From Cyanobacteria bacterium HKST-UBA02 (GTDB lineage Bacteria > Cyanobacteriota > Vampirovibrionia > Obscuribacterales > Obscuribacteraceae), in assembly GCA_020431945.1 (NCBI GenBank), contig JAGQHH010000221.1, positions 1 to 14,745 of the forward strand: DNA of 14,745 nt, in the 5' to 3' direction. The notes under the pieces were generated by a model, which was given only the letters and a program-made list of their open reading frames with translations, ran no database searches and had not been told where the DNA came from. Below are positions 3,689 through 14,745 of the stretch, one piece after another (within the stretch, counting starts at the first letter, position 1; each line of letters begins with the position of its first letter). A program made the translations under genes and the position numbers.

Positions 3689-4795
3689 ATGTTCAAGATC
3701 CTCGATCGCTATTGCTATTACGAATTCGTCGTCATGCTCCTGATCGGCACCACGCTTCCGGCCGGTCTTCTCCTTTTCACTGATGAAGTGAAAAAGATGC
3801 TCTCTTATGTCAAAGATTTCGGCTGCCCGGTGGATCTCTTCTTCCTGATGACCGCCCTGCAACTCCCGGAGATTATCGTGCGCTGCCTGCCCGCCGGGGT
3901 GCTGATCGGCACCATGATGGTGCTGCACAGGATGCTTGCCGATTCCGAGCTGACAGCTCTTCAAACGAGCGGTGTGAGCACCAACCGGATCTTTCTGCCC
4001 TTCATCGTCATCGCCGTCAGCTGCGCCGGCGTCTCCTTCGCCATCAACGAATTCGTCGCTCCCGACTGCCTGAAATCCTCCCTCAAGCTGACCGTAGTGG
4101 CGGCGTCCCGACATGACCTTCCCCAGCTCTACGGGATCAACGATTTCACCAGTGCAGTCAAAGATGATGACGGGAGTGTCAACAAGATCTATATGATCCA
4201 TTCCCGGCACGGCTCGGAGTTCGAGATGGCCACCATATTCGATATCGCCGACCGGAAAAATATACAGATCACCTGGGCACCGACAGGGTATTACAAGAAC
4301 CAGAGCTGGTACCTCTTCGACGGCAACGCCTACACTCTCCCGGAAGATCCCGATCATTCGGTCTCGAGCAGCCACTTCAAGAGAATGCTCATCACTCCGC
4401 CTGATATAGGCCGGTTTCTCCCGGAGAATCGCGAGCCCTTCCCATTCGAGCTCAGCTCCGGCAAGCTCAGACAGCATATCGAAAAGCTGAGAGCCTCGGG
4501 CAAACCGGTCCCGCCCGAGACCTGGACCGACTACTACAGGAAATTCATCGATCCCCTGGCCTGCCTGGTGATCACCTTTGCCGCCTTCCCCATTACTCTT
4601 ATCGGGCGTCGCCGCCGGACCGTAGCCGGAGTGGCCTACGGAGGCGCCCTTCTGGTCTCTTATTTCTCGATTCGCTCGGCATCAGGAGCCCTTGCCACCA
4701 ATAATCTCCTGCCACCGCTTGTGGCGGCGCTTCTGCCCTGCCTGGCGCTAGTTGCCCTTGGCGCCGTCATGTACGCCATCGCCAACAGGCGCTGA
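3689..4795 (+). CDS. LptF/LptG family (YjgP/YjgQ) lipopolysaccharide export permease
   Basis: The predicted protein is 368 aa, matching the 360-366 aa of E. coli LptG and LptF. It has the family architecture: membrane helices in the first 110 residues, a periplasmic beta-jellyroll-like region (about 125-285), then three C-terminal helices with an RRRR motif between the first two. These proteins form the membrane part of the LptB2FG transporter that extracts LPS from the inner membrane. The sequence does not tell LptF from LptG, and no second copy or lptB is in the window. The ATG at 3689 is chosen because it begins the typical N-terminus (MFKILDRY), follows an AGG-rich ribosome site and lies 2 bp after the lnt stop. 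A longer open frame from 3461 runs inside lnt and is not used. The last 48 bp overlap the convergent hydrolase gene. Confidence 0.92.
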   Translation: MFKILDRYCYYEFVVMLLIGTTLPAGLLLFTDEVKKMLSYVKDFGCPVDLFFLMTALQLPEIIVRCLPAGVLIGTMMVLHRMLADSELTALQTSGVSTNRIFLPFIVIAVSCAGVSFAINEFVAPDCLKSSLKLTVVAASRHDLPQLYGINDFTSAVKDDDGSVNKIYMIHSRHGSEFEMATIFDIADRKNIQITWAPTGYYKNQSWYLFDGNAYTLPEDPDHSVSSSHFKRMLITPPDIGRFLPENREPFPFELSSGKLRQHIEKLRASGKPVPPETWTDYYRKFIDPLACLVITFAAFPITLIGRRRRTVAGVAYGGALLVSYFSIRSASGALATNNLLPPLVAALLPCLALVALGAVMYAIANRR

Positions 4796-6499
4796 GACAG
4801 CCACGACTTTGTTCTGCAGCCAGCCGTCCAGACAGTCGATTATCCACTCGGGACATTCGCCTTCCTCGAAAATCAGGTGCTCTTGATCCCCCACCACGAT
4901 CAGATCTTTTCGGGGACACTTGACGGCCCTATAGATCTCGGCAGTGCCTTTCGGCTTCACCAGCCTGTCGCTGAAACCCTGGAAGAATATGCTGGGCACA
5001 TTCTCGATCTGCGGGGCTATCCTGACACTCTGTCGCATGAATTTCTGGAATCGCCTGAGCTCTTCCGGTGCCACCATGCCCCGGGAATTGTCCAGATCCT
5101 CGAGCTTCTGCTTTTCCGGATCGAGGAACATCTGCTTATTGATATCGGTGCCTATATCGATCGGTTTCCACTTGCTGCGCAAGAATCTTCTTGCCACCAT
5201 CAGCGACTCACGGACCTGGCCGTATCGCTCGCCGCCCGGTACAGAGCAGATAAGCCCGCCCAGCCTGTCCTGACACAGTGCGGCGCTCTGAAGCGCGATG
5301 GCACCGCCCATGGACTCGCCCATCAAGACGACTTTGAGACCGGGATTATTACGGCGCAGCTCATCCACCACAGACACCACCTGCTTGAGCCAGATGCCGG
5401 TATTGATGGTATCGGTTCCCTTTTTCAAGGAGAAATCTCCGAAGCCGAGCATATCCATGGCCAGCACCACATGCCCGCGCTTCGCCATGCGCCTTCCGAA
5501 GTCGGCGTAGGAATCACCGGAAAGCCCGAAGCCGTGAATACAGATGATGAAAGTGCGCACGGGCTGGAAAGGATCGATACAGACCGGCGTCATCTGGCGA
5601 TTCTCCCCGAAGACCGGCAGAGTCCAGTTGTCGAAATTCTGAGGTCGGACATGACCGCTTACCCCGGGGCTGTTGAAGAGCACCGGCAGAAAGCTGGCTA
5701 GCTTGTTCCTGGCCGCGTCCCGGTCCGAGCCCCCGAGCACCAGGGAGCGCACCCGCCGATCCGCGGCATCGAGATCGACCTGGCTGATCTGTCCTTGTCC
5801 GAGCGCCCGCTTCGGACCTTCCATGACCCGCTCGTAGTCGCTATAGCGAGCACTGGCCATGCTGAATCCGCTGAGGGCATCGGCGATATCGCTGCGCCCC
5901 ATGCCGGCATAGCAGGCGGTGAGCATTCTCAAGGTCAGATAGAAACGCTCGCCGGTCTCGCCGTAGAGAGTCCGATCGATAACAGCGATACTGGTGAGAA
6001 GCTCGGCAGCCTCTTCGAACTTCTTCTTGCGGATCAGGCTTCCGGCAAGACCTTCCATACAGACGATATTATCGGCGCTCAAAAGCCCGAAAGCGCGCCC
6101 GTAAATGCTCCAGGCGAACTCATAGTGAGCCAGGGCATGATCGATCTGGCCGCTGTCGTACTCGCACTCGGCAAGGGCCGCCTCGACATCGGCCCGCATC
6201 AGTACCGGGCAGCTGGTGGAGGTCTTGAGGCGGGTATCGATGGCCTTGAGAGCCTTGAAAGCATTCTTCTTGCGGCCCTGAATGATATCGAGAAGGGCGA
6301 GATTCAGCCTGGCCCTGTCATCGCTGGTCGCACCGGTCTTTTCCATGATCGCTCTGGCCCGGTCGTATTGCCCGGCAAAGAAAAGGCGACTGGCTTCGTC
6401 CCGGCCCGGAACAGACTGCGATTCCGGAGAAGAGAGAGCCGCATCACCGGCAATCAGGCCGGAGAGAAGCAAAACGATTACAAATAGGAATCTGGTCAT
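4748..6499 (-). CDS. Exported TPR-like / alpha-beta hydrolase protein
   Basis: Read from the ATG at 6499-6497 the protein has 583 aa. The N-terminus MTRFLFVIVLLLSGLIAGDA is a convincing signal peptide. Residues about 30-215 are helical with tetratricopeptide-like repeats (patterns such as FFAGQYDRARAIM and KKKFEEAAELL). From about residue 310 there is an alpha/beta hydrolase resembling monoacylglycerol lipases and lysophospholipases: HG of the oxyanion region at 322-323, nucleophile S396 in GESMGG, acid D511 in FSDRL and H541 in QEHLIF. The triad looks complete, so it is probably an active serine hydrolase acting outside the cytoplasm. The substrate is unknown; a lipid or ester is a guess from the subfamily and the envelope-gene context. 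The frame is open upstream to a TTG at 6577, but that would bury the signal peptide and overlap the divergent gene. The 3' end overlaps the LptF/G gene by 48 bp. Confidence 0.85.
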   Translation of the reverse strand: MTRFLFVIVLLLSGLIAGDAALSSPESQSVPGRDEASRLFFAGQYDRARAIMEKTGATSDDRARLNLALLDIIQGRKKNAFKALKAIDTRLKTSTSCPVLMRADVEAALAECEYDSGQIDHALAHYEFAWSIYGRAFGLLSADNIVCMEGLAGSLIRKKKFEEAAELLTSIAVIDRTLYGETGERFYLTLRMLTACYAGMGRSDIADALSGFSMASARYSDYERVMEGPKRALGQGQISQVDLDAADRRVRSLVLGGSDRDAARNKLASFLPVLFNSPGVSGHVRPQNFDNWTLPVFGENRQMTPVCIDPFQPVRTFIICIHGFGLSGDSYADFGRRMAKRGHVVLAMDMLGFGDFSLKKGTDTINTGIWLKQVVSVVDELRRNNPGLKVVLMGESMGGAIALQSAALCQDRLGGLICSVPGGERYGQVRESLMVARRFLRSKWKPIDIGTDINKQMFLDPEKQKLEDLDNSRGMVAPEELRRFQKFMRQSVRIAPQIENVPSIFFQGFSDRLVKPKGTAEIYRAVKCPRKDLIVVGDQEHLIFEEGECPEWIIDCLDGWLQNKVVAVSAPVGDGVHDGAKGN

Positions 6500-6517
6500 A
6501 GTCTTTAAGAGTAGCAA

Positions 6518-8239
6518 ATGAAAGGCTCTGTGCATCCGGCTAAACTCAAGTCGAGCGATTCCGGACAGAGTATCCAAGTGCCAGATTCTGGGAAATTTTC
6601 CATCCTTCTGAGCGCGAGGCTCATTGCGAGCCTGGCCGGCGCTCTCCTGGCTCTCTCCCTGACAACGCTGTTGCTACCGGTCCGGGCAGCCGATGAGCTC
6701 AGACCCCCCATCGATGATTTCGACCAGATCGAAGAGAAAGAGACGATTCTCATCGACCCGGAGAAAATGATTGTCAAGCCCCCCGCCCTGAAAGCCCTGA
6801 TCACTCTGGAGCAGCCCCTCGATCCGCTTCATATAGACGCCGACGGCAAGCGCGAGATCAATCTCGGCGAGGTGCTCAAAGAAGCCCTGGGAAACAACAT
6901 GGCGATCAAGATTTCCAGGGCCGACGAGAAAGCCGGCGAATGGGACTACTATGGCGCCCTGGGACGCTTTCTACCGGACCTGATGAACAGCGTCAGCTAC
7001 CAGGGTCTCAAAGGCGCCTTCGCCAGCCCGGCCGGTGCGGCAATCAGAATCAACAGCCCCTATCTGAATACAGTCAGCGGCTTCAATCTCTACCTCTACC
7101 GCGGGGGCGGTATCGTCCACGGTGCGCTTCTGGCGCGCCACCAGCTCAAAGCAACCAGACAGGGTCTGTCCGGCACCATAAATGATGTCTTGCTCGAGGC
7201 CACGAGGCTCTACTACAACCTGGTACTACAGGACGCGCTTCTCCAGATCCGGGTGAAAGCGGTGGAGGAGTCGAAGTCGATCTTGAAGCTCAACGAGGAT
7301 CTCTACGCCGAAGGCGCCGCCACCAGGCTGGAAGTGATGCAGGCCCGCAGCCAGATGAGCAGGGATCGCCAGGCGCTCATCTCCCAGCAAGTGAAAAGGC
7401 GGCAGGCCGCCATCGATCTGGCCACGGCTCTTTATCTCAATCCAGAGCTCGACCTCACCGTCCACGACCGGATCCTGGCTAAGACCCGCCTGGTGGACAG
7501 CCGCCTGCCGATAGGCTCCCTGGTCAACGCCGCCGTCAAGTCGAGACCGGAGCTGGCCCGATACGAGCAACTGAGACTGGCGGCCCGGGAGCAGGTAAAG
7601 GTGGCGAAGGCACCGCTTCTCCCTACCGTCTCTTTCGGCGGGGCGGTGGCAGGCACCGGAGCCAGTGTCGCCCGCAACACCAATTCTCAGCAGGTGCCTC
7701 TCGCGTCCGGAACCAGTGGTGATGCCTCAGTGACACCGGTGGTGTCAGGCGGGGGCTCTCTTCCCCTGGTGCAGGGCGTAGGCACCACCCGGGAGTTCGA
7801 TATGCGGGCGCTCTTTCTTATCGGTGTCGATGTCGAGTGGAAGCTCGGAGCCATGGGGGTCCCGGACCTGGCCAATATCCAGAAGAGCCGCTGGCTCGCC
7901 CGCCGCGCCCAGCTCGAATTCAACAGCGAGCTCTACAAGGTCTACCAGCAGGTCCGCACCGCCTTTACCGGCTCTATAGACGCAGAGAGCCTGGTCAGAG
8001 AAACCACCGCCGAAGTGGACTCCTCGGAAGAGGCTCTGCGCATAGCGGTCCTGCGCCTCAAAGAGGGACTTGGAACCCAGACCGACGTGGTGGTGGCCCA
8101 GCGAGACTACACCCAGGCTCTGATCAACAAAGCAAGCGCCCTGATTCAATACAATACGGCCCAGGCAACCCTGCTCCACCGTCTCGGTCTGATTTCTTTC
8201 AACACCCTGACCCGTGGGCTCAAGACTTTGCCGCAGTAG
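6518..8239 (+). CDS. TolC-family outer-membrane efflux channel
   Basis: The 573-aa protein has a hydrophobic signal segment at about residues 33-57 ending in VRA, a linker to about 112, then the duplicated outer-membrane efflux region with long helices (first half about 113-320, second about 325-560). Family-like features include the INLGEVLKEALGNN start of the first half, the LEVMQARSQM helix and the closing YNTAQATLLHRLG segment. It should trimerise as the channel for the RND pump and fusion protein encoded convergently at 8220-12580. The ATG at 6518 has an AAGAG site 6 nt upstream but puts about 30 polar residues before the signal segment. A GTG at 6578 is an alternative start. Unusually, the second half carries a Gly/Ser/Val-rich stretch of about 48 residues (roughly 378-426) where an extracellular loop is expected. 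Confidence 0.9.
   Translation: MKGSVHPAKLKSSDSGQSIQVPDSGKFSILLSARLIASLAGALLALSLTTLLLPVRAADELRPPIDDFDQIEEKETILIDPEKMIVKPPALKALITLEQPLDPLHIDADGKREINLGEVLKEALGNNMAIKISRADEKAGEWDYYGALGRFLPDLMNSVSYQGLKGAFASPAGAAIRINSPYLNTVSGFNLYLYRGGGIVHGALLARHQLKATRQGLSGTINDVLLEATRLYYNLVLQDALLQIRVKAVEESKSILKLNEDLYAEGAATRLEVMQARSQMSRDRQALISQQVKRRQAAIDLATALYLNPELDLTVHDRILAKTRLVDSRLPIGSLVNAAVKSRPELARYEQLRLAAREQVKVAKAPLLPTVSFGGAVAGTGASVARNTNSQQVPLASGTSGDASVTPVVSGGGSLPLVQGVGTTREFDMRALFLIGVDVEWKLGAMGVPDLANIQKSRWLARRAQLEFNSELYKVYQQVRTAFTGSIDAESLVRETTAEVDSSEEALRIAVLRLKEGLGTQTDVVVAQRDYTQALINKASALIQYNTAQATLLHRLGLISFNTLTRGLKTLPQ
6581..6601. other. Two abutting short inverted repeats near the divergent starts
   Basis: CCAGATTCTGG (6581-6591) and GGAAATTTTCC (6591-6601) are each 5-bp inverted repeats around one central base, and they share one G. 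They lie about 80-100 bp upstream of the hydrolase start at 6499 and just inside the 5' end of the TolC-like gene, immediately after the alternative GTG start at 6578. They could be an operator for one or both divergent genes. Short palindromes occur often by chance, and this region is coding if the ATG at 6518 is the true start. Confidence 0.25.
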
Positions 8240-11200
8240 CTTTGAAAAAGCGCGCGATACTCGTCTTCAGGTTATTGATCACGACATAGATGACCGGGAC
8301 GACAAGAAGGCTCATAACAGTAGCCACTGTCATCCCTCCGCATACCGCCGTACCCAGCGAATTGCGGCTGGCCGAGCCGGCACCGGTGGCGAAGACCAGG
8401 GGAAGAATACCGATGATGAAAGCCAGGGCCGTCATCAGGATCGGTCTCAGACGCAGGACCGAGGCTTTGATCACGGCGTGGACCATGGGCATGCCGGCAC
8501 TGTCCCTCAGATGGTTGGCGAACTCGACGATCAGAATGGCGTTCTTGCTTGCCATGCCGATAAGCATCACCAGTCCAATCTGACAGAAGATATCATTCTC
8601 GAGCCCGCGCATGAGCTGGAAAGAGAAAGCGCCCAGCACCGCCAGCGGCACCGACAACATGATGATCAGGGGATCGACATAGCTCTCGTACTGCGCCGAG
8701 AGAACCAGATAGACGAAGACAATCCCCAGCAGGAAGATGAATATGGCGCTCGAGCCGGCCTGGATCTCTTCCAGCGAGATTCCCGACCACTCGTAGGTCA
8801 TGCCTGCCGGCAGGAGACCGGTAGCGAGATTCTCCATGGCTTTGATCCCCTCGCCGGAGCTTCTGCCCGGCGCCGGGTTGCCGTTTATCTCGGCGCTCCG
8901 GAAGAGATTGTAGTGAGAAATCACCTGGGCGGTAAGGTCGAAATTCTCGTCGATGAGGTTTTTCATGGAGACCATGGACCCGTCCCGGGAGCGGACATAA
9001 TACTCGAAGAGATCCCTGGGCTTGGTGCGGAAGGCATCCCCTGCCTGAACATAGACTCGATAGGTCTTGTTGAGAAAGTCGAAGTCGTTTATATAGGCAG
9101 AGCCGGAGAGGGTCTGGAGCGTGTCGAGGACATCGCCGATATCGACATTGAGCCGCTCGGCCTCGTCTCTTCTCACTGCCAGCTTGAGCTGGGGCGTATT
9201 GGCGCTGAAACTGGTGAAGAGCCCCTGCAGATCCCCGGATGAATTGCCTTTTTTAATCAGTTGACCGGCCATATTGTTGAGATCCTGGATGTCGGTACCC
9301 AGCAAATCCTGCAACTCGAAGACGAAACCACCGAAACTGCCGAGCCCTTCGATGGCAGGCGGCAGGAAAGGCACCACCGAAGCACCGGTGATTCCCGCAA
9401 GGGGCTTGCGCAGGCGTTTGAGCACGCCCTTCACGGTTTTCTCAGGAGCCTTGCGCTCGTCCCAGTGCTTCAGGGTGGTGAACATGATACCGAGATTGGG
9501 ACCATTGCCCTGGAATCCGAAGCCACCAAGACCGGTGACGGATTCGACCTCGGGAAGCTTTCTCTGAATCGCGGCAGCCTGATCGATGATGCCGGTGGTG
9601 TACTCGAGAGAAGTGCCCTCCGGGGCTCTTATCATGGTGTAGAAATAGCCCTGGTCTTCATCTGGCACGAAAGCTGTGGGCAGAATCTTAGAAATCCACC
9701 AGGTCAGTCCCAGGCAGCAGGCGAAAACAATCAGCACAATCGGCGTGAAACGAATACATTTCACCAGGACATGCTTATATCCCCTGGTCACCCAGTTGAT
9801 GAAGTCATTGATTTTACGGAAGAGGATGAACTGCCGGGCTCGGTCCTCGGGCCGCAGCCAGAGCGCACATAGAGGCGGGCTCAGAGTGAAAGCATTGATC
9901 ATCGAGAGGCCTACCGAAAAGCTTATGGTGATGGCGAATTGCTTGTAGAGCTGCCCGGTGGTGCCGGGGAAAAACGCCACCGGCACGAACACCGCGAAAA
10001 GCACCAGGGTGGTTGCCACCACCGCCCCGGATATCTCGCGCATGGCGGCAAAAGCCGCGCTCATCGGGCTCATGCCCTCCTCGTCGATGAGACGTTTGAT
10101 GTTCTCCACCACAACAATCGCATCATCCACCACCAGCCCTGTCGCAAGGGTAAGGCCGAACATGGTGAGAGTGTTGATGGAGAAACCCAGCATCTTCATG
10201 AACACGAAAGTGCCCACCAGAGACACCGGTATCGCGATGGAGGGGACCAGGGTGCTGCGCCAGTCCTGAAGGAAGAAGAAGATCACCACGATCACCAGGA
10301 AGATGGCCTCGATGAGTGTGTGAACAACTTCTTTGATCGACTCTTTGACGGCTTCTGTAGTATCGAGGGCGACATCGACTTTGAGACCGGGCGGAAAGTG
10401 CTTTTCGAGCCTGGCAAGCTCGGCGCTGACTGCATCTGAAACCTGCACGGCATTGCCGCCGGGTCTCAGATAGACGACCACCACCACGGCTTTTTTGCCG
10501 TTATAAGTACCGTTGGTGTCATAGCTCTCGGCGCCCAGGTTGACGGTGCCGACATCTTTGAGCTTCACCAGGGCGCCCTCATCCGAGCGCGCGATAACCA
10601 TCTCGGCGAACTGCTCCGGCTCCACCAGACGGCCGATGGCCCGCAAGTTGATCTGGTACATCTGTCCCGGAGGAGCCGGGGCTCGTCCCAGATCCCCTGC
10701 TCCCACCTGCTTGTTCTGTCTCTGAATCGCCCTCGATACGTCCAGAGGCGTGAGCTTGTACTGGGCGAGCTTCTTTGGATCGAGCCAGACCCGCATGGCA
10801 TATTTGCGCTCACCGACGATACTTACGTCACCGACGCTGGGCAGCCGTTTGAAAGAATCTTTCAGATAGAGGTCCACATAGTTGGATATGAACTCGCTGG
10901 AATATTCGCCCCCCTCGGCATAAACACCGAGGACCATGACTATGGAGGTGGAAACTTTCTTTATGCTCGTCCCGGTCTTTTTCACGTCCTCAGGGAGTTT
11001 GCCCGAGACCGCCGCCACCCTTGTCTGAACGTCCACCGATGCCAGATCGACATCGCGCTCCAGATCGAAAGTGCAGACGATTTTGCTCCTCCCGTCATTG
11101 GCGCTCTGGGACTGGATATACTTGAGGCTGTCTACACCGTTGATCTCGCGCTCCAGGAGCTGCGTCACCGAAGACTCCACCTGCTCGGCATTGGCACCGA

Positions 11201-11351
11201 TATAAGTGGACTCGATGCTCACCTGCGGTGGCGCAATCTGGGGATACTGGGCGATAGGCAGATTGGGTATGACTATTCCGCCTATCAGCACCATGATTAT
11301 GGCAATCACGGTGGCGAATACCGGTCGTTTGATGAAGAAGTCCGAGAACAA
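8220..11351 (-). CDS. HAE1-type RND efflux pump, inner-membrane subunit (AcrB/MexB-like)
   Basis: This is a proton-driven drug exporter of 1043 aa, close to the 1049 aa of AcrB, with the usual two halves of six helices and large periplasmic loops. The opening FIKRPVFATVIAIIM and PIAQYPQIAPP are hallmark HAE1 sequences. The proton-relay residues are present: D409 and D410 in GLVVDDAIVVVEN and K936 in MASKNAILIVEF, with the following arginine in RLRPILMTALAF. The double aspartate separates it from heavy-metal RND pumps. The start is a TTG at 11351-11349, supported by a GAGG site 7 nt upstream and by the exact family N-terminus. It lies 14 bp after the fusion-protein gene, the usual operon partner. 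Its last 20 bp overlap the convergent TolC-like gene, which probably supplies the outer-membrane channel. The substrate is unknown. Confidence 0.96.
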   Translation of the reverse strand: MFSDFFIKRPVFATVIAIIMVLIGGIVIPNLPIAQYPQIAPPQVSIESTYIGANAEQVESSVTQLLEREINGVDSLKYIQSQSANDGRSKIVCTFDLERDVDLASVDVQTRVAAVSGKLPEDVKKTGTSIKKVSTSIVMVLGVYAEGGEYSSEFISNYVDLYLKDSFKRLPSVGDVSIVGERKYAMRVWLDPKKLAQYKLTPLDVSRAIQRQNKQVGAGDLGRAPAPPGQMYQINLRAIGRLVEPEQFAEMVIARSDEGALVKLKDVGTVNLGAESYDTNGTYNGKKAVVVVVYLRPGGNAVQVSDAVSAELARLEKHFPPGLKVDVALDTTEAVKESIKEVVHTLIEAIFLVIVVIFFFLQDWRSTLVPSIAIPVSLVGTFVFMKMLGFSINTLTMFGLTLATGLVVDDAIVVVENIKRLIDEEGMSPMSAAFAAMREISGAVVATTLVLFAVFVPVAFFPGTTGQLYKQFAITISFSVGLSMINAFTLSPPLCALWLRPEDRARQFILFRKINDFINWVTRGYKHVLVKCIRFTPIVLIVFACCLGLTWWISKILPTAFVPDEDQGYFYTMIRAPEGTSLEYTTGIIDQAAAIQRKLPEVESVTGLGGFGFQGNGPNLGIMFTTLKHWDERKAPEKTVKGVLKRLRKPLAGITGASVVPFLPPAIEGLGSFGGFVFELQDLLGTDIQDLNNMAGQLIKKGNSSGDLQGLFTSFSANTPQLKLAVRRDEAERLNVDIGDVLDTLQTLSGSAYINDFDFLNKTYRVYVQAGDAFRTKPRDLFEYYVRSRDGSMVSMKNLIDENFDLTAQVISHYNLFRSAEINGNPAPGRSSGEGIKAMENLATGLLPAGMTYEWSGISLEEIQAGSSAIFIFLLGIVFVYLVLSAQYESYVDPLIIMLSVPLAVLGAFSFQLMRGLENDIFCQIGLVMLIGMASKNAILIVEFANHLRDSAGMPMVHAVIKASVLRLRPILMTALAFIIGILPLVFATGAGSASRNSLGTAVCGGMTVATVMSLLVVPVIYVVINNLKTSIARFFKATAAKS

Positions 11352-11358
11352 AGTCGAT

Positions 11359-11362
11359 CCTC
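11359..11362 (-). promoter_or_regulatory. Ribosome binding site fixing the TTG start of the RND gene
   Basis: On the - strand GAGG lies 7 nt before the TTG at 11351 and 3 nt after the fusion-protein stop codon. No ATG or GTG is close by in frame, and the protein read from this TTG begins exactly as HAE1 pumps do (FSDFFIKRPVF). The site therefore supports TTG as the real initiation codon. Confidence 0.7.
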
Positions 11363-11365
11363 GCT

Positions 11366-12580
11366 CTATGACTTCGTGACGATGGGAGCGCCGTCAGAGA
11401 GGTTCTGTACACCGGATACGATGAGCTCCTCCCCGGCAGCCAGTCCGGTCTCGACCAGGACTCCGTTGCCGCTTTGCAGCTGTCCTAGCTTCACCGGCTT
11501 CTGCCTGGCGACGGCATTACCCTTATCGTCCTTCTGAGCGACATAGACGAAGGGCTGGCCGCCGACTATGGCCAGGCAGCGAGTCGGCACCACTATCCCC
11601 CGACTGCGCCCCCAGACAACCCGGGCCGTGACATTCTGCTCCGGACGCAGGATGTTGTCCTGATTCTCATAGAGAGATTTGACCAGCACCGACTGAGTGC
11701 TGGTATCTACCGTGGGCGACACATAGAAAACACTGGACATGCCGATCACCTTGCTCTCTTCGTCCAGTAGCTCCACGGTGGTGCCATGATGGACCTTTTT
11801 AGCCTCGTCCTTGGGCACCTGAATATAAGCCTCCAGAGGCTTTCTCTGGCTGACACTGGTGATCTCGGAGGCGGGCGTGACATAGTCCCCGATCTTCACC
11901 GGGATATTACCGACGGTGCCTGCAAAGGGAGCCTTGATGACATGATACTCGAGCTCCTCCTCCTGCACTTTGACGTCTGATTTGGACTGATTCATCTGAC
12001 GCTCCGCTGCTTTCACGGCAGCAAGCTGGGCGCTTATCTGGGCCTCCAGGGACTCGGCGTCCGAACGCTTCACCTTGAGAGCCCGCTCTTTCTCTTCCTG
12101 TCTCTCCTTCGAAACAGCGCCCCGATTGAGAAGGTTGGTGTAACGGGTGAATTCTTTCTCGGCGAATTCGACATTGGCCTCGCTGCCGGCTCTCTGAGCC
12201 TCGAGGGCTTTGAGCTTGCGCATCTGCGCATAATATTCCGCCTGGGCCGACTCGAACCCTGCTTCCTTGCTTGCCACGCTCGCCTGCACCTGGAAAGGAT
12301 CGATCTCGATAAGGGGCTGACCTGCCTTCACCACCTGCTCCGGGTCCACCATAATCTTGATTACATGACCATCGACCTTGGGTCTGAGCACCACTGTCTT
12401 GCGCGAGTCCATTCGTGCCACATAGGTGGAGGAGTCGACCACCGGCACCGCCTGGACCTGCTCCACTTCCACGGGAAATGCCTTCGGTCCCTCGACTTTT
12501 GGAGCCTCTTTGCTGCAAGAGACAAGGAGAAGAGAGATAGCGAAAGTTGAGCAGAGGAATCTTCTATGAGCTCTCATCAT
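11366..12580 (-). CDS. RND membrane-fusion (periplasmic adaptor) lipoprotein
   Basis: This 404-aa protein is an AcrA/MexA-type adaptor that bridges an RND pump to a TolC-like channel. It begins with a lipoprotein signal and lipobox LVSC, so the mature N-terminus is the lipidated C22. A first lipoyl half-motif at about 65-96 (VDGHVIKI, then VVKAGQPLIEID) is followed by a long alpha-helical hairpin (about 100-212, rich in Ala, Glu, Lys and Gln) and the second lipoyl half (VIKAPFAGTVG, about 215-245). Beta-barrel and membrane-proximal regions close the protein. The start codon at 12580 overlaps the PII-like stop as ATGA, and a second in-frame ATG follows directly. A weak AGG lies upstream, so coupling to PII-like translation is likely. 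The RND gene follows after 14 bp. Confidence 0.95.
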   Translation of the reverse strand: MMRAHRRFLCSTFAISLLLVSCSKEAPKVEGPKAFPVEVEQVQAVPVVDSSTYVARMDSRKTVVLRPKVDGHVIKIMVDPEQVVKAGQPLIEIDPFQVQASVASKEAGFESAQAEYYAQMRKLKALEAQRAGSEANVEFAEKEFTRYTNLLNRGAVSKERQEEKERALKVKRSDAESLEAQISAQLAAVKAAERQMNQSKSDVKVQEEELEYHVIKAPFAGTVGNIPVKIGDYVTPASEITSVSQRKPLEAYIQVPKDEAKKVHHGTTVELLDEESKVIGMSSVFYVSPTVDTSTQSVLVKSLYENQDNILRPEQNVTARVVWGRSRGIVVPTRCLAIVGGQPFVYVAQKDDKGNAVARQKPVKLGQLQSGNGVLVETGLAAGEELIVSGVQNLSDGAPIVTKS

Positions 12581-12888
12581 GATGACCTGGGGATTCTTAT
12601 AGCTTCGTCGAGATCCGAGATGAACATCATGCCCCCGGAATCTTTGCCTGGTTTGGAAAGAGCTTCTTTGACCATTTCAACGATGGGCTGGAGTTCATCG
12701 GGGTTGACTGCCACCTCGATCTTGGCTCTCGGATTGAGCCTGCCGAACAGGTCGACATCGGCAGCCAGATGCTCGCTGCCGAAACCTTCTACTTTGGAAA
12801 CCGTCACCCCCGACACCCGGGCTCTTCTCAGAGCGCTGGCCAGCCTCGAAACAGCCGTCGGGCGAACAATCACTGTGATCAGTTTCAT
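12577..12888 (-). CDS. Divergent PII-like signalling protein associated with RND efflux
   Basis: The 103-aa protein aligns without gaps to GlnB over residues 1-37, including P10, G27, T29, V30 and GFG at 35-37. The KIE strand (56-58) and the C-terminal IRI (97-99) are also kept. By comparison with E. coli GlnB the T-loop is about 4 residues shorter and has no tyrosine, so the uridylylation site Tyr51 is missing. Gln39 is replaced by Glu. The B-loop keeps GK but reads GKDSGGMMF, losing the lysine equivalent to Lys90, and Arg103 is replaced by Pro. Canonical ATP/2-oxoglutarate sensing is therefore doubtful. The start at 12888 has AGGA 5 nt upstream. The gene shares ATGA with the fusion-protein gene, which points to a role in controlling the pump or sensing a ligand for it. 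PII-like proteins linked to metal-efflux genes (PII-NG) are the closest described class I know of. Confidence 0.82.
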   Translation of the reverse strand: MKLITVIVRPTAVSRLASALRRARVSGVTVSKVEGFGSEHLAADVDLFGRLNPRAKIEVAVNPDELQPIVEMVKEALSKPGKDSGGMMFISDLDEAIRIPRSS

Positions 12889-12898
12889 CTAGATCCTG

Positions 12899-13516
12899 TC
12901 AGTCTTCGTACTCCAGACCTGTCTGGCTGGTGCGTGCCGTGCCCAGATAGCCGAGTTTGTCATTGGTGATCTCGAAAGCGCCGGACATGGTCTTTTTCAA
13001 GGTGGTGACCGTCTTGTCCGGTCGGTAGATCTTCACCTGCCCGCTCGAATCACGCTCGAGGCGACCCTGGACACCGTTGGGATATTTGACGATGAAACTG
13101 GTGGGACCGTCGGGAATCACCACAGTGCCATCGAATACGCTGCCATTGGCCCGGAAGCTGCGATCGGGATAGCGAACGATCTCGCAGGTGGAGCCGTCGG
13201 TATACATTATGTGGAGGATGGTGGCTTTCTTGTCCAGAGGCGGGCCGCTCTTCTCGTAAGGATCGATGTCCTGCACCGAGAGAAACATGAAGAGGTCCTT
13301 GGCCAGATACTCGCCGGACTTGCCCAGCTCTTTGCCCAGGCCTTTCATGAACTTGCGCACCGGCTTCTTCTTCTTCGGCTGGGAGCCTTCTTCGGTAAGA
13401 CCCAGGGGATCCGGCCCGGTATCGAGCTCAGCCATATACTTCTTCGTTTCCTCGGCAAACGCGGAGGAAGCCGTCAATGCAGTAATGCAGGCGGCTATGA
13501 GAAGCTTACGTTTCAC
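12899..13516 (-). CDS. Small exported protein with beta-hairpin-like repeats, function unknown
   Basis: The 205-aa product starts with a clear signal peptide (MKRKLLIAACITALTASSAFA, cleavage before EET), then a Lys-rich segment (PKKKKPVRKFMKG). The C-terminal half, from about residue 100, carries recurring short motifs of the type aromatic-Pro-Asp/Asn-Gly: YTDGS, YPDRS, IPDGP, YPNGV and YRPDK. They are spaced about 12-20 residues apart, as in beta-hairpin repeat proteins. I do not recognise the family and propose no activity. The start is a GTG with an AGAGGAG ribosome site 7 nt upstream. The gene lies 12 bp after the acidic-repeat gene and 10 bp before the PII-like gene, so it is almost certainly in the efflux operon and probably acts in the periplasm or at the outer membrane. 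Confidence 0.8.
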   Translation of the reverse strand: MKRKLLIAACITALTASSAFAEETKKYMAELDTGPDPLGLTEEGSQPKKKKPVRKFMKGLGKELGKSGEYLAKDLFMFLSVQDIDPYEKSGPPLDKKATILHIMYTDGSTCEIVRYPDRSFRANGSVFDGTVVIPDGPTSFIVKYPNGVQGRLERDSSGQVKIYRPDKTVTTLKKTMSGAFEITNDKLGYLGTARTSQTGLEYED

Positions 13517-13523
13517 TTGCTTT

Positions 13524-13530
13524 CTCCTCT
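13524..13530 (-). promoter_or_regulatory. Strong Shine-Dalgarno site fixing a GTG start
   Basis: AGAGGAG on the - strand lies 7 nt before the GTG at 13516-13514 and overlaps the TAG stop of the preceding gene (13531-13529). It supports GTG as the start of the exported protein at 12899-13516. The close spacing points to one transcript for both genes. Confidence 0.75.
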
Positions 13531-14745
13531 ACTTCTTCTTGCTCTTCTTGAGCTTGAAGATACCTTTCTTCTCGGCCTTCTCGAGACGCTGGTCATCGAC
13601 ATCACCGGAGATCTTGGCGGAAGCGCCCGGCATCAACTGAGCCTCGGTGAGAACCTCACCGGTGAACTCCTGATGAAGCTCGACGAGGAACTCGTCACCG
13701 GGTCTGATCAGGGCTTCCTGTCCTCTGGTAACGGTGTCTTCGATGATCCAGGATCCCGGAATACCACTCAGGAACCCCCAGGCAAAACCTTTGATCCGGC
13801 GGTGGGGCTCATTGGTTCCCACCGGGCGCATGAATGCGAAACTGGGATTGACGGCTCCCATGACGCCGAGGGCGACCGGCATGGCACCAAAGCTGAAGAC
13901 TCCGGCCGGAGCGAGGGCGGCGTTGAGACCGATACGAACGGCTTTGTAGCGAAGCTGCTGGCCCCAGGGACCGGTGATCTGACCATCATGGTTGACCCCG
14001 AGCAGACGGCCTTCGGCCTTGTTCTTGACGATACGATCCTTTCTCGCCGGTTTTGCATTCGGAGCGATATGCTCGTTTTTCTCGTTGATGATCTCATCGA
14101 ACATGATGCCCACGCAGCCGGAGTTGCGATACCACCGGTGGGGACTTACAAGCGAGTGCAGAACCGTTCTGGCAGGCATGTTGTAATCGATATGACCGGT
14201 CACCAGGCTGCCCTTTTTGGCAATCAGCCGATCGCCGATCTTCAAGTCATATTTGAGACGAGCTTGAAGCACGTCGCCCCTCTTGGAGGTCTTCGAGGAA
14301 ATCTGCGAGACCATCACCACCGGGAACTGCGCACCGGTCTTGATGCGGGTCCTGGCGTCGTCGGTGGGAAGGTCCTCATAAGCGATGGTTTCCTCGACAA
14401 TTGCCGCTTCGTCATTGTCGATCACGATTACTTCGACGGCATCCTTCTCGACATAGCCTTCCTCGAGGAAAGCCAGCTCGTCGCCTTCTTCGGCACCACC
14501 TGTGGCACCGGACTCTTCAGGCTTGCTCTCGGCTACTGCCGGTTCTTCTTTCGATTCTTCTGTTTTCGCTTCAGCAGTCTCGGGAGCTGTCTCTTCGGGC
14601 TTGCTTTCAGCTACTGCCGCTTCTTCTTTCGACTCTTCTGTTTTCGCTTCAGCAGTCTCGGGAGCTGCTTCTTCGGGCTTGCTCTCGGCTACTGCCGCTT
14701 CTTCTTTCGATTCTTCTGTTTTCGCTTCAGCAGTCTCGGGAGCTG
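13529..14745 (-). CDS. Acidic tandem-repeat protein with a C-terminal beta-rich domain (5' end outside the window)
   Basis: The frame is open from the TAG at 13531-13529 through the window edge, so at least 404 residues are present and the start is missing. A GTG at 14425 could begin a shorter ORF, but the repeats continue upstream in frame without a stop. The N-terminal visible part is three copies of a 26-residue repeat rich in Glu, Ala, Lys and Pro (about 78 residues), then another acidic linker. The remainder is folded: a segment reading TGAQFPVVMVSQIS, RGDVLQARL, KKGSLVTGHI resembles the start of VirB10/TrbI-like and other envelope beta domains. A Gly/Ala-rich hydrophobic stretch follows, then PGDEFLVEL and a Lys-rich tail. 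The disordered acidic region may span the periplasm or bind cations. Function is not recognised. The next gene starts 12 bp downstream. Confidence 0.8.
   Translation of the reverse strand, partial: APETAEAKTEESKEEAAVAESKPEEAAPETAEAKTEESKEEAAVAESKPEETAPETAEAKTEESKEEPAVAESKPEESGATGGAEEGDELAFLEEGYVEKDAVEVIVIDNDEAAIVEETIAYEDLPTDDARTRIKTGAQFPVVMVSQISSKTSKRGDVLQARLKYDLKIGDRLIAKKGSLVTGHIDYNMPARTVLHSLVSPHRWYRNSGCVGIMFDEIINEKNEHIAPNAKPARKDRIVKNKAEGRLLGVNHDGQITGPWGQQLRYKAVRIGLNAALAPAGVFSFGAMPVALGVMGAVNPSFAFMRPVGTNEPHRRIKGFAWGFLSGIPGSWIIEDTVTRGQEALIRPGDEFLVELHQEFTGEVLTEAQLMPGASAKISGDVDDQRLEKAEKKGIFKLKKSKKK
14512..14745 (-). repeat. Three tandem 78-bp coding repeats
   Basis: Units at 14512-14589, 14590-14667 and 14668-14745 each encode 26 residues of the pattern PETAEAKTEESKEE, then AVAESKPEE with small variations. 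By eye any two units differ at only 4-6 of 78 bases. The changes include silent ones and Ala/Thr/Ser and Ala/Pro replacements. The array probably continues past the window edge. The near-identity points to recent duplication, and copy number could vary between strains. Confidence 0.93.

Follow-up and report, generated by a model that had tools for sequence, protein, structure and literature searches.

A divergent PII-family gene overlaps the adaptor gene of an HAE1-class RND efflux cluster and encodes a candidate modulator of the pump

What is a gene of the PII signaling family, members of which act elsewhere as metabolite sensors and transporter gates, doing directly in front of a multidrug-type efflux pump? 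The question is raised by the window, a 14,745-nucleotide stretch of contig JAGQHH010000221.1 from Cyanobacteria bacterium HKST-UBA02, a relative of the non-photosynthetic kin of cyanobacteria; its minus strand (8220-14745) carries a compact run of genes separated by gaps of 12, 10, -4, and 14 bp. In order, these genes encode a repeat-rich protein of unassigned family, the frame of which is open at the window edge (13529-14745, stop at 13529), a 205-residue protein of unassigned family that begins like a signal peptide by eye (12899-13516), directly upstream of a 103-residue PII-family protein with an ATG start (12577-12888), an RND periplasmic adaptor of the MFP type with a lipoprotein-like start by eye (11366-12580; TIGR01730, 197 bits for a cut-off of 94.9), and a 1043-residue RND pump of the HAE1 class (8220-11351). 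On the plus strand, a gene for a TolC-type outer-membrane efflux protein (6518-8239; PF02321, 140.7 bits) converges on the pump gene, overlapping its 3′ end by 20 bp. Pfam and NCBIfam confirmed the assignments as P-II protein, adaptor, pump of the AcrB type, and outer-membrane efflux protein.

A preliminary description of the locus had proposed that the PII and adaptor genes are translationally coupled, and the layout bears this out. The PII and adaptor genes share 4 bp, ATGA (12577-12580, minus strand), which contain the stop codon of the former and the start codon of the latter. The adaptor gene begins with ATGATG; the ATGA overlap uses the first ATG, and the second would give TGATG. AGGA, at 12894-12897 of the same strand and 5 bases before the PII start codon, is the likely ribosome-binding site for PII. 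The two proteins encoded upstream are probable operon members with PII. A Pfam scan gave no family for the 205-residue protein at E values up to 0.1, nor any family over cut-off for the 298-residue part of the repeat-rich protein that was scanned. The latter contains acidic head-to-tail repeats rich in Glu, Ala, and Lys where it leaves the window (14440-14745). Elsewhere in the window, a protein encoded at 4748-6577 has TPR-like and alpha/beta-hydrolase matches, and its neighbors are an apolipoprotein N-acyltransferase and a permease of the LptF/LptG type.

The 103-residue product scored 69.2 bits with PF00543 (cut-off of 25), with residues 1 to 99 covered, which upholds its placement in the PII family and not with CutA. 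The AlphaFold model of the monomer has a mean pLDDT of 88.3, and its top structure matches are GlnZ, GlnK, and PII, with DUF3240 tying in Z. We set aside a CutA identity, as neither Pfam nor NCBIfam returned a CutA family at E values up to 0.1. DUF3240 (PF11582; 3ce8) was likewise set aside, with 19.3 bits for a Pfam cut-off of 21, versus 69.2 bits for PF00543.

Gln39, Lys90, and Arg103 are given as ligand contacts of canonical GlnB/GlnK in the available part of PMC8395244, and all three are kept in the 12 canonical sequences of our alignment. In the window protein they are replaced by Glu, Met, and Pro, respectively; Lys58 is changed to Arg and Gly87 to Ser, and Arg101 and Thr29 are retained. 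The B-loop, G-D-G-K in canonical proteins, reads Asp83-Ser-Gly-Gly-Met87 (codons at 12628-12642, minus strand). The T-loop, counted from the Gly37 to the Lys58 equivalent, has 16 residues (residues 38 to 53; codons at 12730-12777, minus strand) and is devoid of Tyr, versus 20 residues and a Tyr51 in 12 of 12 canonical rows. The alignment thus bears out the shortened T-loop, the absence of Tyr, and the three substitutions noted earlier (Gln39, Lys90, and Arg103).

Among 5.8 billion proteins we found three close relatives of the window PII, 94, 62, and 53% identical to it. A profile search added P0267 (56%) and 29 proteins scoring at least 114 bits, the next score being 100 bits or less (best 120 of 6,408). 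With the window protein and eight genome loci, these 33 proteins make up a wider family of 42 rows, some of which are near-copies. Lys90 is kept in none of the 42, and Arg103 in none of the 37 that have a residue there. All 42 rows have Glu or Asp at position 39 and a 16-residue T-loop that retains Asp44 and Gly49. Tyr is absent from position 51 throughout, and it occurs elsewhere in the loop in 20 of the 37 rows outside the window group. The window-type sequences form a clade of five rows (support 100/98) marked by B-loop changes, Ser or Lys for Gly87 and Gly for Asp88; as a clade, the wider family has a support of only 85/79 in this tree of 110 columns and 73 rows. Since the altered ligand site is common to all rows of the wider family (for Arg103, to the 37 scorable ones), it probably predates the link with the pump, as judged from the alignment. 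We therefore rejected the idea that the ligand-site changes are a special adaptation to this pump: every row has them, and seven of the eight relatives with visible neighbors are without a nearby RND gene.

HAE1 pumps are trimers characterized by an Asp-Asp motif in TM4 and a Lys in TM10. The window pump has VVDDA in TM4, and ASKNA is also present. It scored 1235.7 bits with TIGR00915 (cut-off of 940.35) and 1259.8 bits with NF000282 (cut-off of 1250), and its 408.6 bits with TIGR00914 fall below the cut-off of 701.45. The HAE1 class previously proposed for this pump is therefore correct. Inspection by eye of its cytoplasmic segments next to those of 15 PII-free pumps revealed no special docking element.

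We then looked at the company kept by PII genes in related genomes. The comparison order consists of 53 genomes (the order of genome G541) that appear to be Obscuribacterales or near to them; the window apolipoprotein N-acyltransferase matched 48 of the 53 at E ≤ 1e-40, the best at 55% identity (G483). When 289 genomes from the class were searched for PII at E ≤ 1e-9, 32 of them gave a total of 38 matches. We opened 29 of these matches, namely all 27 of at most 303 bases and two of the 11 longer, canonical-length ones. Eight loci with scores of 86 to 99.6 bits represent the wider family of the window PII. Seven of these nearest relatives showed no RND match in the stretch available, and one (L140) lies between two pumps. 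Among the 19 lower-scoring loci (L142 to L160), 16 PII genes directly adjoin a gene for an adaptor or a pump, a further one is separated from an adaptor gene by 2.8 kb, and two are at contig edges with none seen. All nine pumps classed near PII genes, two at L140 and seven from L142 to L160, were over the CusA/CzcA cut-off and under that for HAE1, which sustains the contrast drawn in the preliminary description between this pump and the metal pumps known beside PII genes. The metal-pump-linked PII proteins of the order have T-loops of 11 to 13 residues, versus 16 in the window protein, and 17 of their rows form a clade (support 99/95) that leaves the window PII outside. On the window side this split is supported at 85/79, in a tree of sequences other than proteobacterial PII-NG.

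Some of these loci have features of their own. At L140 (6099-12686, genome G530), the wider-family PII gene sits between two CusA/CzcA-type pump genes, apparently a second RND link of the family. In two genomes (L137, 3504-4711; L138, 8273-9477), 2 bp separate the start of the PII relative from a preceding lipoprotein-like gene without a known Pfam family. Five metal-pump-linked PII frames (L145, L148, L149, L150, and L153) carry, ahead of the point where PII proteins usually begin, a conserved stretch of approximately 34 residues, which represents either a true N-terminal extension or an upstream in-frame start.

Conservation of the PII-HAE1 pairing in relatives, which the preliminary description had made a touchstone, held in part, probably in one lineage 62 to 63% identical to the window and at none of the HAE1 adaptor loci of the order. 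A search with the window adaptor at E ≤ 1e-60 identified 49 such loci, at most 44% identical to it and spread over 39 of the 53 genomes. At 42 of them a pump frame scored at least 1,000 bits with the window pump, and two had no pump match; the closest locus, L188, has a pump 63% identical and the order outer-membrane protein-adaptor-pump. All 49 were opened, and none had a PII gene as judged with a PII profile at E ≤ 1, the sequence available upstream of the adaptor being shorter than 350 bp at L198 and L199 and 515 to 521 bp at two more. As this profile necessarily recovers the 29 loci from which it was built, we repeated the test with held-out profiles. They recovered 27 of 27 PII genes, eight of eight from the window's family and 19 of 19 linked to metal pumps, and both gave no match in the 49 loci.

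Closer to the window, the source contigs of P0002 (62% identical to the PII protein) and P0122 (63% identical to the adaptor) are both 114,628 bp long and hence probably one and the same, and a second lineage, 62 to 63% identical, probably keeps the pairing. P0001 (94%, PII) and P0121 (93%, adaptor) are from contigs of 5,187 and 34,581 bp, in clusters with several members, and their adjacency was not seen. PII and adaptor have diverged in step, with identities of 94 and 93% in one case and 62 and 63% in the other. The adaptors of the window group form a clade (support 100/99). In the adaptor tree, a group of nine rows (90/85) comes between the window and P0122; an ancestral pairing is thus the simplest reading. 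Two adaptors inside that group came without a matching PII among the best 120 of 6,408: P0127 (58%, contig of 46,468 bp), and P0125 (61%, 20 members, longest contig of 132,107 bp), for neither of which was any PII from a contig of matching length. Thus, the link may have been lost there or have arisen on two occasions, or a PII gene was overlooked. The PII-HAE1 pairing is narrow, limited to a small lineage, and we found none in the literature among the matches listed.

We favor, with a probability of about 0.45, the reading that an atypical local PII protein was co-opted as a modulator of the trimeric HAE1 pump. A PII gene from the wider Obscuribacterales family, where RND neighbors are mostly absent, would have joined an HAE1 tripartite operon directly before the adaptor gene. 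The protein would fold as a trimer like other PII proteins, and its short T-loop might dock on the cytoplasmic face of the pump or on an assembly intermediate. A small ligand other than the canonical Mg-ATP/2-oxoglutarate pair would then alter the T-loop and thereby raise or lower efflux. The arrangement suggests metabolic control of the pump by its operon mate. The more specific proposal, that the PII trimer gates or tunes a multidrug-type HAE1 pump from the cytoplasmic side in response to a ligand other than the canonical ATP/2-oxoglutarate pair, and that this link evolved apart from that of PII to metal-class pumps, is tentative. Co-option is favored by the PII family and fold, the overlapping genes in a compact run, the probable shared contig of P0002 and P0122, the in-step divergence, the well-supported PII (100/98) and adaptor (100/99) clades, the parallel link in the order (16 of 19 metal-pump-type PII genes adjoining an adaptor or pump gene), the retention throughout the 42 rows of three T-loop features (Asp44, Gly49, and the acidic character of residue 39), and the trimeric nature of HAE1 pumps. 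We counted against it the 49 adaptor loci without PII, the lack of a PII matching P0125 and P0127 among the best 120 of 6,408, the unseen adjacency of P0001 and P0121, the seven of eight relatives without a nearby RND gene, and the lack of a clear docking element by eye.

Those same seven relatives would be expected if the PII protein were a sensor with a target other than the pump, such as gene expression or another enzyme, and were merely co-expressed with it, and the lipoprotein-like gene 2 bp before PII at L137 and L138 points the same way. The overlap with the adaptor start, the pairing probably retained at 62 to 63%, and the parallel PII-RND link in the order argue against such a target, which we regard as somewhat unlikely. 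The overlap and the probable retention in a second lineage, together with the similar divergence rates of PII and adaptor, also make it unlikely that the gene order is an accident in which a recent or neutral neighbor is functionally unlinked to the pump, even though an accident would fit a pairing limited to a small lineage and the absence of a PII matching P0125 and P0127 among the best 120 of 6,408. The protein might also be a metal sensor, as proposed for GSU2134 of the PII-NG type in the available part of PMC7726332, with the HAE1 pump recruited for a metal chelate or another metal-related solute. The efflux-linked PII genes of the order do go with CusA/CzcA-type pumps, including L140 of the wider family, and Asp44 and the acidic residue conserved at position 39 are potential metal ligands. 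However, the window pump is of the HAE1 and not the metal class, and its PII falls outside the clade of 17 metal-pump-linked rows; we consider a metal sensor improbable.

Several known systems come close to the window cluster. As far as the accessible text of PMC7726332 describes it, GSU2134-2137 of Geobacter sulfurreducens is an RND operon with a metal-class pump and the PII-like GSU2134 as its first gene. A PII-led RND operon is thus already in print, and the HAE1 partner is what differs here. Like PII-NG beside CzcA/CusA pumps, the window joins a PII-family gene and an RND tripartite system in one operon; unlike it, the pump is HAE1, and the metal-pump PII proteins of the order have T-loops of 11 to 13 residues and form a separate clade. 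The putative trimer and its putative control of a trimeric membrane transporter resemble GlnK-AmtB and SbtB-SbtA, as outlined in the portion consulted of a review (PMC10710835). Those proteins gate uptake systems, whereas the window system is an exporter whose candidate PII modulator has lost several nucleotide contacts. According to the same portion of the review, the small accessory proteins AcrZ, YajC, and WatS1 bind and tune RND pumps, AcrZ-like ones those of the drug type, and the control of AcrZ itself is unclear. The window PII is, by analogy, a candidate tuner of this kind, but it has a PII fold and is presumably soluble, whereas WatS1 has 55 residues and AcrZ, with 49, consists of one helix wrapped around the transmembrane portion. 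A report on Pseudomonas aeruginosa (PMC13029640) also ties a PII protein, GlnK, to drug susceptibility, in that case to carbapenem resistance; by its title, the route is NtrB/NtrC-OprD, without a pump operon.

If true, the coupling of a PII-type sensor to an HAE1 pump would offer a testable route by which metabolism sets efflux directly. The order supplies natural controls in the form of HAE1 pumps that lack PII, metal-class pumps that have it, and relatives of PII with no RND gene beside them.

Broader searches gave more distant PII proteins. None of 386 genomes of Cyanobacteriota gave a match at E ≤ 1e-14, and neither did any of the 145 genomes from the class to which G281 belongs, searched at E ≤ 1e-13; these draws missed the 53-genome order, none of whose genomes was among the first 386. 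A contig scan of genomes with a PII alignment, using two short peptide patterns only, found no window-type member among 169 confirmed relatives, of which 80 were kept (top identity, 37%). None of the 81 loci L001 to L081 had an RND match in the stretch available, which says little because they are mostly from Arthrobacter and its kin. No DNA match was found in phages, and viral contigs contained one match, 36% identical. Protein searches of plasmid records returned 30 for the window PII and 84 for a metal-pump-linked PII of the order, all below 60% identity. We opened four plasmid neighborhoods and found no RND gene in them. Two adjoin an ammonium transporter gene, and the two from Acinetobacter have one-carbon genes close by and, approximately 1.2 kb away, a gene for a transporter of the SMR family.
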